Below are positions 42,594 to 47,862 of a stretch of DNA of 54,435 nucleotides, piece after piece (positions within the stretch are counted from its first letter, which is position 1; each line of letters begins with the position of its first letter). The DNA is from Paracoccaceae bacterium (GTDB lineage: Bacteria; Pseudomonadota; Alphaproteobacteria; Rhodobacterales; Rhodobacteraceae). Position numbers and translations under genes: made by a program. The stretch is from assembly GCA_011620265.1 (NCBI GenBank), contig WOZM01000299.1:1-54435 (forward strand). The letters run 5' to 3'. The notes beneath the pieces were generated by a model. That model saw nothing but the letters and a program-made list of their open reading frames with translations. It was not told the origin of the DNA and did not search any database.

Positions 42594-42607
42594 TTGATCT
42601 CGATCAG
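42594..42607. promoter_or_regulatory. FNR-type box upstream of acyl-CoA synthetase operon
   Basis: TTGAT-CTCG-ATCAG matches nine of ten half-site positions and has the same spacer as the perfect box at 3410. It lies 82 bp before the TTG start at 42690 and 14 bp after the previous stop codon. Confidence 0.65.
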
Positions 42608-42689
42608 TCCTGCCCGGCGGCTGCCGCGTTAGCGTGGCGCGGATGGCGGCAGCCGTCGCTTGCCCCCTTGTCGGGAAAGGAGCGCGACG

Positions 42690-44435
42690 TTGAGCGACAC
42701 GACCCTGCGAAAGGAGCCGGCCGCCGCCCGCGCGGCCAACATGCCGGACTACCGCGAGGCCGTCGCCGAGTTTTCCTGGCAGGCGGAACGCGACGCGCTC
42801 GCGGGGCTGTCCGACGGCGGGCTCAATATCGCGCACGAAGCGCTCGACGCCCGGATCGCGGCCGGGCTCGGCGACGTGCCGGCGCTCCGCTGGTTCGGCC
42901 GCGACGGGACGGAGATCATCTTCACCTATGCGGCGCTGAGCCGGGAAGCCAACCGGTTCGCCAATGTCCTGGCGTCGCTCGGGGTGCGGCCGGGCGACAC
43001 CGTCTATTCGCTTCTCGGCCGGGTGCCCGGCCTCTATTTCGCCGCGCTCGGCACACTCAAGTCCGGCGCCGTCTTCTGCCCGATGTTCTCGGCCTTCGGC
43101 CCCGAACCGGTGCAGGCGCGGATGGAGATCGGCTCTGCCCGGGTGCTCGTCACGTCCGCGGCGCTCTACCGCCGCAAGGTCAGGGGTATCCGCGGCCGCC
43201 TGCCCGACCTCGCCCATGTCCTCCTCGTCGATGGCGAGGAGGAGGGCTGCACCGCGCTCGCGCCCCTGATGGCGGCGGCCGGGGACACGTTCCGGACCGC
43301 GCCGACCCGGCCGGAAGACCCGGCGCTCTTGCATTTCACCTCGGGCACGACAGGCCGGCCCAAAGGCGCGCTGCACGTCCACGAGGCGGTCGTCGCCCAC
43401 CGCGCCACGGCGCGGCTCGCGCTCGACCTCCGGCCCGGCGACCTCTACTGGTGCACCGCCGATCCCGGCTGGGTGACGGGCACCTCCTACGGCATCATCG
43501 CGCCGCTCGTGATCGGCGTCACGATGATCGTGGACGAGGCGGAGTTCGATCCCGACCGCTGGTACGACATGCTGGCCCGCGAAGAGGTGACGGTCTGGTA
43601 CACCGCACCCACCGCCATCCGTATGCTGATGCGGGCGGGGGCCGAGCTGATCGGCAAGCGCCGGTTCCCCAAACTGCGCTTCATGGCCAGCGTCGGCGAG
43701 CCCCTGAACCCCGAGGCGGTGCTCTGGGGGCAGGAGGTCTTCGGCATGCCGTTCCACGACAACTGGTGGCAGACCGAGACCGGCGGGATCATGATCGCCA
43801 ACTACGCCTCGATGGACGTCAAGCCCGGCTCGATGGGCAAGCCGCTTCCGGGCATCGAGGCCGGGATCGTCGCGGTCACGGAAGCCGGCGTGAAGGAACT
43901 GACGAAGCCGCAGGCGATCGGCGAACTGGCGCTCCGCCCCGGCTGGCCGTCGATGATGCGCGCCTACCTGCACGAGGCGGCGCGCTACCAGAAGTGCTTC
44001 CGCGACGGCTGGTATCTTTCGGGCGACCTCGCGATGCGCGACAGCGACGGCTACTACTGGTTCGTCGGCCGTGGCGACGACGTGATCAAGAGCGCCGGGC
44101 ACCTCATCGGTCCGTTCGAGGTCGAAAGCGCGCTGATCGAGCATGACGCGGTGGCCGAGGTCGGCGTGATCGGCATCCCCGACGAGACGGCGGGCGAGAT
44201 CGTCAAGGCCTATGTCGCGCTGAACAAGGGTTACGAGCCGAACGAGGAGCTTGAGCGCGAACTTCTCGGCCATGCCCGCAAGCGTCTCGGCCCCGCCGTC
44301 GCGCCGAAAGCGATCGTGTTCCGCCAGAACCTGCCCAAGACCCGGTCCGGCAAGATCATGCGCCGGCTTCTCAAGGCGCGCGAACTCGGCCTGCCAGAAG
44401 GCGATATCTCCACCCTCGAAAGCGACGAGAAATGA
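42690..44435 (+). CDS. Acyl-CoA/acetyl-CoA synthetase (AMP-forming, ANL superfamily)
   Basis: 581 aa. The adenylation motif [18 protein letters not shown] is at about 213-230, WWQTETGG near 368 contributes to acetate-type carboxylate and adenine binding, and the C-terminal [10 protein letters not shown] carries the catalytic Lys555. It is related to acetate/medium-chain acyl-CoA synthetases. Start is TTG 42690 with AAAGGAG seven bases before it. It is the first of four genes joined by stop/start overlaps or near-contact with a 2-oxoacid decarboxylase, a lipoyl acyltransferase and an ACP. It may charge CoA or the carrier protein; the acyl group is unknown. Confidence 0.88.
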
Positions 44436-46432: not shown

Positions 46433-46435
46433 GGG

Positions 46436-47608
46436 ATGGGCGAGTTCCGCATGCCGTCGCTCGGCGCCGACATGGAGGCGGGCACCCTCGTCGAGTGGCT
46501 GAAGGCGCCCGGCGACAGGGTCGCGCGCGGTGACATCATCGCTGTGGTCGAGACCCAGAAGGGCGCGATCGAGATCGAGGTCTTCGAGGACGGAACGCTG
46601 GACCGGACGCTGGTCGAGGTCGGCGCCAAGGTTCCGGTGGGCACGCCGCTCGCCGTCATCCGGGCGACGGGCGAGGCGGCGGCTGAAGTGGCGAAAGCGC
46701 CCGCGCCGATCCCGGCGCCGAAGCCGGAAGCGCCGAAGCCGAAGCCCGCGCCGCGCGCTGAACCGTCCCGTGCGCCCGAAGCCGGTGCGCGCTTGCGGAT
46801 CACCCCGGCGGCTTTCCGTGCGGCCGAGAAGCTGGGGCTCGATCCCGAGCGGTTGCGGGCGATCCGGGGCACCGGGCCGGACGGCGCGATCACGCTTGGC
46901 GATATCGAGGCCGCCGCCGAAGCCGCGCCCGAAGCGCCCGGACCGATGACCGAGATGCGCGCGGCGATTGCCGCCGCGATGGCGCGCTCGAAGCGGGAAA
47001 TCCCGCATTACTACCTGGCGCAGAGCGTGGACCTCACCCGGGCCTCGGACTTCCTGACAGCGGCCAATGCCGGTCGCGCGCCGGAAAACCGCCTGCTGCT
47101 CGGGGTGATGTTCCTGTCCTCCGTGGTCCGCGCCGCGCAGGACTACCCGGAATTCAACGGCCACTTCATCGACGGCGCGTTCCGTCCGGCGCCGAAGATC
47201 CATGCGGCGATGGCGGTCGCGCTGCGGGGCGGCGGACTCGTCGCACCGGCGATCCTCGATTCCGGCGACTGCGACCTCGACACGCTGATGACGCGGATGC
47301 GCGACACGCTCGGCCGGGTCCGCGCCGGCCGCTTCCGCGCGCGCGAACTGTCGGAGGCGACGATCACCGTCACCAGCCTCGGCGAGCGCGGGGTGGAGAC
47401 GCTGTTCGGCGTCATCCAGCCGCCGCAGGTCGCCATCGTCGGTTTCGGCAGCCCCGCCGAGCGGCCCGTCGTCCAAGACGGCAAACTCGCCGCCGCCCTC
47501 ACCACCACCGTCACGCTCGCCGCCGACCACCGGGTCAGCGACGGCCATCGCGGCGCGCTCTTCCTGCGCGCCATCGACCGGCATCTGCAGGAGGTCACCG
47601 CATCATGA
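46436..47608 (+). CDS. 2-oxoacid dehydrogenase E2, dihydrolipoamide acyltransferase
   Basis: 390 aa in the standard order: one lipoyl domain (1-78) with lipoylated Lys42 in VETQKGAIEIEVFE, an Ala/Pro-rich linker, a peripheral-subunit-binding domain near 118-155 (RITPAAFRAAEKLGLDPERL), and a catalytic chloramphenicol-acetyltransferase-like domain ending with AADHRVSDGHRG (catalytic His and Asp). The lipoyl site is ETQKG rather than the common ETDKA. It should accept the acyl group from E1. No E3 (lipoamide dehydrogenase) gene is in the operon, so E3 must be borrowed. The stop overlaps the ACP start. Confidence 0.92.
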   Translation: MGEFRMPSLGADMEAGTLVEWLKAPGDRVARGDIIAVVETQKGAIEIEVFEDGTLDRTLVEVGAKVPVGTPLAVIRATGEAAAEVAKAPAPIPAPKPEAPKPKPAPRAEPSRAPEAGARLRITPAAFRAAEKLGLDPERLRAIRGTGPDGAITLGDIEAAAEAAPEAPGPMTEMRAAIAAAMARSKREIPHYYLAQSVDLTRASDFLTAANAGRAPENRLLLGVMFLSSVVRAAQDYPEFNGHFIDGAFRPAPKIHAAMAVALRGGGLVAPAILDSGDCDLDTLMTRMRDTLGRVRAGRFRARELSEATITVTSLGERGVETLFGVIQPPQVAIVGFGSPAERPVVQDGKLAAALTTTVTLAADHRVSDGHRGALFLRAIDRHLQEVTAS

Positions 47609-47862
47609 CGAAGGACGACATCGAAAAGCTGGTCCGCGGCGAACTTGCGCGCATCGCGCCGGATATCGACCCCGACGCGATCGACCGCGACGGCGACCTG
47701 CGCGAGGAGTGCGATATCGACTCGCTCGATTTCCTCAATCTCGTCACCGCCCTCGGCAAGGCCCTGTCGATGCCGATGCCGGAGGCGGACTACCCGGCGA
47801 TGCGCAGCCTGAACGGGCTCGTGGCCTACTTGTCGCGCGGATCAGCCGCTTCGGCCGGGTGA
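47605..47862 (+). CDS. Acyl carrier protein dedicated to the E1-E2 operon
   Basis: 85 aa, acidic four-helix carrier. The phosphopantetheine Ser40 lies in DIDSLDFLNLVTALGKAL, the conserved DSL motif after a predicted helix 1 (DIEKLVRGELARIAPD). It is not the fatty acid synthesis AcpP, because it is shorter in the usual regions and coupled by ATGA to E2. It could accept the acyl group made by the E2, or be loaded by the ligase. Its 3' end overlaps the convergent universal-stress-like gene by 21 bp. Confidence 0.85.
   Translation: MTKDDIEKLVRGELARIAPDIDPDAIDRDGDLREECDIDSLDFLNLVTALGKALSMPMPEADYPAMRSLNGLVAYLSRGSAASAG

Follow-up and report, generated by a model that had tools for sequence, protein, structure and literature searches.

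What does a pyruvate dehydrogenase (PDH) do with an acyl carrier protein (ACP) of its own? Few enzyme complexes have been studied as well as PDH, for which coenzyme A (CoA) is assumed to be the acceptor. The question is raised by an operon on contig WOZM01000299.1 of a Paracoccaceae bacterium (assembly GCA_011620265.1), the whole 54,435-nucleotide stretch of which was analysed and is called the window here. The operon, referred to below as the module, encodes an acetate ligase (Acs), the E1 and E2 components of a PDH and an ACP. The reading we prefer, held with slightly more doubt than belief, is that a single dedicated ACP receives acetyl groups from both an accessory PDH and an acetate ligase at low oxygen or under stress, which suggests that some cells would load acetyl onto a protein carrier and not onto CoA alone. 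The features of the operon are as follows.

42594-42607, plus strand: FNR-type box TTGATCTCGATCAG, upstream of Acs, one mismatch
42690-44435, plus strand: Acs, AMP-forming acetate--CoA ligase, 581 residues; TTG start, alternative in-frame TTG at 42660
44432-46432, plus strand: E1, fused alpha-beta pyruvate dehydrogenase by family models, 666 residues; ATGA overlap with Acs
46436-47608, plus strand: E2, 390 residues; one lipoyl domain (Lys42), a peripheral-subunit-binding domain and an acyltransferase domain with DHRVSDG
47605-47862, plus strand: ACP, PF00550, Ser40 in DSL; 4-bp overlap with E2

The operon and its conservation

The original prediction had described four tightly packed genes behind an FNR-type box, with no gene for E3. 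Indeed, the reading frames, junctions, motifs and box are as claimed, with three bases between E1 and E2 and a single mismatch between the box and TTGATNNNNATCAA, which we take to be the FNR consensus. Acs belongs to the acetate--CoA ligase family NF003313/PRK04319 (877.7 bits against a cut-off of 729), and its best match among solved structures is the acetyl-CoA synthetase 9g79. The two halves of E1 pass the PDH E1 alpha model TIGR03182 (427.6 against 393.85) and the PDH E1 beta model NF006667 (402.8 against 321), and the lipoyl, E3-binding and catalytic domains of E2 each score above their Pfam cut-offs. The ACP lies above the cut-off of PF00550 and below that of all seven NCBIfam models matched. 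The motifs GEG...NN in E1, ETQKG in E2 and DSL in the ACP can all be read in the window proteins. The AlphaFold2 model of E2 (mean pLDDT 87.1) gives E2 cores as its Foldseek matches, and that of the ACP (mean pLDDT 92.5) has the ACP fold, with mitochondrial complex I ACPs as well as bacterial ACPs among the nearest folds. E3 is missing from the window operon, and none is listed within 9 kb of the module in eight annotated relatives, whose gene tables are incomplete. The emphasis that the original prediction placed on this absence was right for the operon but incomplete, since the other contigs of the window genome carry two lipoamide dehydrogenase (lpd) genes above cut-off, alongside two other E2 genes, and these lpd genes explain it.

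To place the operon among its relatives, 385 alphaproteobacterial genomes were searched with E1. Besides that of the window, 14 genomes carry an E1 at 64-79% identity over its best-aligning part, well separated from other E1s, which reach 40-46%. Twelve of the 14 regions show Acs, E1, E2 and ACP in this order, and two stop inside the operon at a contig edge. The same genomes searched with the ACP gave 20 places in 19 genomes, with E2 upstream in 18 and Acs instead in two; beyond the incomplete E1 search, this brought in G095, G131 and G230, along with an extra copy in G116 and a further G087 contig. Plasmid records hold 27 relatives at 60-80% identity among 30 matches. Eight annotated plasmid relatives list the whole set (Sulfitobacter, Leisingera, Methylocystis, Sinorhizobium, Cupriavidus, Rhodococcus, Burkholderia and Streptomyces), and two further ones, ten having been taken in all, show it by tblastn. 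In the tblastn set, which includes the window and shares three loci with the 14 alphaproteobacterial regions, the four parts were present in 24 of 24 loci. Among 398 Pseudomonadota genomes, an E1-beta search found 14 and an ACP profile 15, with 14 in common, such that every E1-positive genome also has the ACP (Fisher p about 7e-25, a guide only given that the genomes are related). This search also gave two weak ACP places, one (L214) with a piece of E2 upstream and one (L213) without a module gene.

The widest survey took the ACP alignment through 84,980 species, one genome each, and covered the contexts of the best 80 of at least 572 confirmed places. A module E2 or a piece of one lies directly upstream of the ACP in 79 of these 80, and the 80th has 76 bases of upstream sequence. 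Acs and E1 are both present wherever at least 5 kb of upstream DNA is available, except at L103, L106 and L109. The record titles span six or more phyla: Alpha-, Beta- and Gammaproteobacteria, Deltaproteobacteria, Acidobacteria, Nitrospirae, Planctomycetota, Chloroflexi and actinobacterial groups. Metagenome bins make up many of these records, and their taxon assignment may be wrong. The original prediction had proposed comparing gene neighbourhoods, and the context of the ACP proved clearly conserved: its association with the module is far above chance and is no accident. ACPs of module type were found beside non-module E1 or E2 matches in 0 of 26 loci, a weak control as most of these have about 1.5 kb of flank. 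The fusion of E1, correctly noticed in the window, is a detail and not general, alpha and beta being separate genes in several relatives; the operon has four or five genes.

The carrier protein, E2 and the ligase

Junctions and motifs were counted from a set of 113 loci, with L143 and five other repeats dropped (a few repeats may remain). The stop of E2 and the start of the ACP overlap by exactly 4 bp in 94 of 108 measured loci, and the phosphopantetheine serine motif DS[MLIF] is found in 111 of 111 relatives. A fusion of E2 to the ACP was also considered and was identified in none of 80 loci: E2 ends by its own stop at the measured junctions, though in this GC-rich DNA the reading frame of the ACP often continues open on its upstream side.

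The acidic face of an ACP is the recognition surface for fatty acid enzymes. Helix II of the module ACPs has a mean net charge of -0.2 over 16 residues, whereas the AcpP-type ACP of the window genome keeps its acidic run (-5, counted by eye). The equivalent of Glu41 in AcpP is Asn in 106 of 111 module ACPs, followed by His in 82 and Arg in 77. Given the loss of the acidic face of helix II, the ACP probably serves partners other than fatty acid enzymes, and these are probably the operon's own enzymes, the only constant candidates.

The catalytic His, the lipoyl Lys and DHR are invariant in 55 aligned module E2s, and QKG is the usual reading of the lipoyl site (57 of 94). Counted from DHR on, the tail has 27 residues in 51 of the 55, as against 29 in nine and 31 in two of 11 canonical E2s. 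Relative to E. coli AceF and the window genome's own E2 (L155), which together formed the whole reference, 25 positions are specific to the module, seven of them within AceF residues 411-426 and two within 536-544. These nine fall in the region after R407, described as serving lipoyl docking in AceF, and the docking loop (PMC8421416); lying around the lipoyl-docking region, they hint at a complex insulated from the other PDH of the genome. In the structural account of the E. coli complex, the C-terminal region of E2 forms the knob between trimers, and CoA reaches E2 from the interior of the cage (PMC8421416). The CoA contacts of E2 named in the literature drawn on are residues on the pantetheine side. 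In actinobacteria, a three-residue insertion in this C-terminal region is described as turning cages into trimers (PMC10415282). By analogy, the short-tailed module E2 could be an open trimer with its acceptor side accessible to a protein; with CoA entering from inside the cage, such a trimer would suit a protein acceptor.

A separate E2-like protein, 36% identical to the module E2, is encoded at 6455-7606 of L171 (Sinorhizobium sojae plasmid pSJ05684b); its lipoyl site, ETRTG, has no lysine. The next frame resembles a universal stress protein by eye, and no match to E1 or the ACP was found in 14.6 kb.

The motif NWWQTETG, with a Trp that is presumably the acetate-pocket residue, occurs in 73 of 75 Acs relatives, and judged by sequence Acs is probably an active acetate ligase. 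Given a pyruvate-type E1 and an acetate-specific ligase, as both most likely are, the 2-oxo acid would most likely be pyruvate and the acyl group is probably acetyl. Seventy-two of the 75 ligases were aligned, having been chosen by a motif that contains the catalytic Lys, the conservation of which in this set is therefore by selection. We considered whether Acs has lost its CoA site; no such loss was seen, the presumed CoA-binding Arg being present in all 72.

At the two alphaproteobacterial places where Acs stands directly before the ACP, E1 and E2 are absent and the genes look intact. In a third genome from that family, too, Acs and the ACP form such a pair.

L194, 6432-13961; L195, 5163-14086; and L200: Acs-ACP pairs, next to the genes for a conserved protein of unknown function and a divergent NDP-forming ligase-GNAT

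In the two pair loci with enough sequence (L194 and L195), an MBOAT O-acyltransferase and the conserved unknown protein lie beside the ACP. The Acs proteins of the pairs branch together and apart from module Acs in a midpoint-rooted tree without an outgroup. Because the pair exists without a PDH, Acs may charge the ACP itself, which suggests that it is a second charger and not a salvage enzyme alone. The original prediction had allowed the ligase to load, salvage or recycle the acyl acid; loading gains from the pair, and salvage on its own loses. The pairs support charging of the ACP by Acs, and not a general MBOAT consumer.

Neighbours, low-oxygen control and rival explanations

FNR-type boxes were sought in 72 loci in the 350 bp upstream of Acs and the first 45 bp of the gene, with 50 simple shuffles as control. 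Boxes with at most one mismatch were found in 17 loci, compared with a shuffled mean of 0.24, and boxes with at most two in 39, compared with 3.7 expected. Given this excess, low-oxygen control is likely for part of the family, the window included.

Neighbours were counted over 103 loci, and the counts are lower bounds owing to crude gene calls, contig ends and many short flanks. Only Acs, E1, E2 and the ACP are constant; no flanking family is. The commonest flanking families are GroEL and Hsp20 (9 of 103 loci each), followed by a hibernation-factor/cold-shock protein and an ACP-ligase-PlsC protein (8 each), LonB-like and M50-CBS proteins (6 each, the window being among the loci with the former) and a pyruvate phosphate dikinase/PEP synthase-like family (5). 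The annotated plasmid records list universal stress, Hsp20, CBS and Crp/Fnr proteins as neighbours. On the minus strand beside the window ACP (47842-51041) lie a 230-residue protein without a family match and the LonB-like protease. Farther away in the window, cobalamin genes (CobN-type, CobO/BtuR, CobQ/CobB-type and a DBI phosphoribosyltransferase) occupy 24890-37368. At L046, on a Sulfitobacter sp. SK012 plasmid, a row upstream of the module (473-5597) encodes a hydrolase, FabI, an enoyl-CoA hydratase/phosphate acetyltransferase and an acetate/propionate kinase, which could be a butyrate-type fermentation route.

Two consumers of the acyl group were considered and rejected. The original prediction had thought of a special lipid as product, an idea that gains no support, as no lipid gene is constant nearby; the protein joining ACP, AMP-binding and PlsC-type acyltransferase domains, found at 13558-16404 of L041 and at seven other loci, is too rare (8 of 103). 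A general O-acetylation through MBOAT, in the manner of the Dlt pathway, is attractive in view of the Acs-ACP pairs but was set aside for the lack of an MBOAT match in the window genome and of any enrichment: 8 of 18 module genomes have one, compared with 111 of 365 others (p 0.30). Among the loci examined, MBOAT genes adjoin two Acs-ACP pairs and occur in the vicinity of a single complete module (L121). No peptide or polyketide gene cluster is a constant neighbour in the 103 loci.

In the scheme that we favour, E1 would decarboxylate pyruvate and acetylate the lipoyl arm of E2, as expected from its family, and from E2 the acetyl would move on to the phosphopantetheine of the ACP translated along with it, with CoA as a possible further acceptor. 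The lipoyl arm would be reoxidised by a lipoamide dehydrogenase encoded elsewhere in the genome and docked on the binding domain of E2. Acs would load the same ACP, or CoA, from acetate, as the Acs-ACP pair implies, and the consumer of acetyl-ACP would be encoded outside the module. The earlier proposal of 2-oxo acid decarboxylation with acyl transfer to a dedicated carrier at low oxygen thus gains from the coupling of E2 and ACP across phyla, the lost acidic face, the FNR-type boxes that some members have and the stress-gene neighbours, with the transfer itself still a predicted step.

Several observations weigh against this scheme. An Arg is kept in 72 of 72 aligned Acs at a position that we take to be the CoA-binding R584 of Salmonella Acs, and given its retention CoA is probably still the normal acceptor of Acs. 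No acetyl-ACP consumer is conserved near the module, and the MBOAT that might have served as one has no match in the window genome. No close FNR-type box (at most one mismatch) was found in 55 of the 72 loci, DHRxxDG could be read in 104 of 109 E2 frames and not in all, and two of the 55 module E2s have a tail of canonical length. The weak ACP match L213 has no module gene nearby, and L103, L106 and L109, apparent deletion remnants, keep the ACP and pieces of E2 beside a partly deleted operon.

The same four constant genes would also fit a closed circuit, in which E2 would form acetyl-ACP and Acs, running in reverse, would turn acetyl-ACP, AMP and PPi into acetate and ATP, a CoA-sparing fermentation of pyruvate at low oxygen. 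Close FNR-type boxes in 17 of 72 loci and the pyruvate phosphate dikinase/PEP synthase-like genes at five of 103 agree with such a circuit, and in Syntrophus an AMP-forming Acs is described as using acetyl-CoA, AMP and PPi to make ATP (PMC4992975). It is nevertheless improbable, as the reversal requires high PPi and AMP, Acs resembles a normal ligase, and a pair of Acs and ACP without a PDH needs no circuit. That pair, present in three genomes of one family with an Acs that branches apart under midpoint rooting, lends itself to the view that Acs alone charges the ACP while E2, canonical in its active-site residues, uses CoA as in any PDH, the genes being grouped for acetyl supply. We hold this unlikely too: where the module is complete, it is E2 and not Acs that precedes the ACP, with the 4-bp overlap in 94 of 108 loci, and the presumed CoA-site Arg is kept in all 72 Acs.

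Mitochondrial ACP acts as a subunit in LYR-protein complexes. A structural or regulatory part for the module ACP in its complex, with the acyl group as a signal, would accord with the tight coupling to E2, the complex I ACPs among the nearest folds and the altered E2 C-terminus, but an Acs-ACP pair exists without E2, and we regard this role as distinctly unlikely. Less credible still is a supply of octanoyl groups for lipoylation of the module E2. LipB is reported to accept octanoyl from ACP (PMC9307952), but the window genome has an AcpP-type ACP, the Acs-ACP pairs have no adjoining E2, and the module ACP has lost the acidic face that fatty acid enzymes use.

Charging of one ACP by both PDH and Acs remains the reading that we prefer. 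Its broader form is more doubtful: acetyl-ACP might be a second acetyl currency in several phyla, charged from pyruvate by a specialised PDH and from acetate by Acs, and kept apart from acetyl-CoA and from fatty-acid ACP under low oxygen or once growth has ceased. If true, a widespread form of PDH with an ACP to itself, in some cases plasmid-borne and surrounded by stress genes, would redraw the picture of how central carbon flows in bacteria that are dormant or short of oxygen. The module narrows the question to a few proteins that can be tested and opens the choice of acceptor by E2 to direct comparison.

Comparison with known systems

In the Dlt pathway, a ligase (DltA), a carrier (DltC) and an MBOAT acyltransferase (DltB) act together. 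The related Acs-ACP pair likewise has an MBOAT gene as its neighbour at the two loci where the sequence extends far enough; the module differs in that the window genome has no MBOAT match and in that its ligase is an acetate ligase. With AcpP, the module ACP shares the ACP fold and the phosphopantetheine serine, but not the acidic helix II. As in canonical PDH (E1p, E2p and E3), E1 passes the PDH family models, and E2 keeps the lipoyl Lys, the subunit-binding domain and DHRxxDG. Unlike canonical PDH, the module operon lacks E3, has its own ACP and Acs, carries a QKG lipoyl site in most cases and has an E2 tail two residues shorter in 51 of 55.

The low-oxygen stress islands known as the lxa locus of Burkholderia cenocepacia and the OsdR region of Streptomyces coelicolor resemble the surroundings of the module in that both hold universal stress proteins, and the lxa locus offers alpha-crystallin and a phosphate acetyl/butyryl transferase as further similar neighbours; the descriptions drawn on make no mention of an Acs-E1-E2-ACP module (PMC6127331, PMC5069765).

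The nearest parallels in carrier chemistry are QncN/QncL/QncM, NapB/D/C, SclQ1-4 and DinS/T/U, each described as a thiamine diphosphate (ThDP) enzyme with a lipoyl-acyltransferase and an ACP, in which a C2 unit passes from ThDP through lipoyl to the ACP and yields glycolyl- or hydroxyethyl-ACP for peptide antibiotics (PMC6335953, PMC7570522). The original prediction knew of no characterised system of this composition. It thereby overlooked a partial parallel in QncN/QncL/QncM. For the full module, no description was found in one open-licence library, a scope that takes in neither most subscription papers nor annotation tables. Compared by description, these systems share with the module the E1-like halves, the lipoyl and E2-type acyltransferase domains, a dedicated ACP and the fact that no E3 is named in those accounts, and by analogy they are a precedent for transfer from lipoyl to ACP being possible. 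They differ in a ketose phosphate donor, a transketolase-like E1, an antibiotic cluster as setting and the lack of a named Acs in the same accounts, whereas the module E1 is of PDH type by family models. Given these differences in E1 type, donor and setting, the module is placed with the 2-oxoacid dehydrogenase complexes, of which it is a variant.

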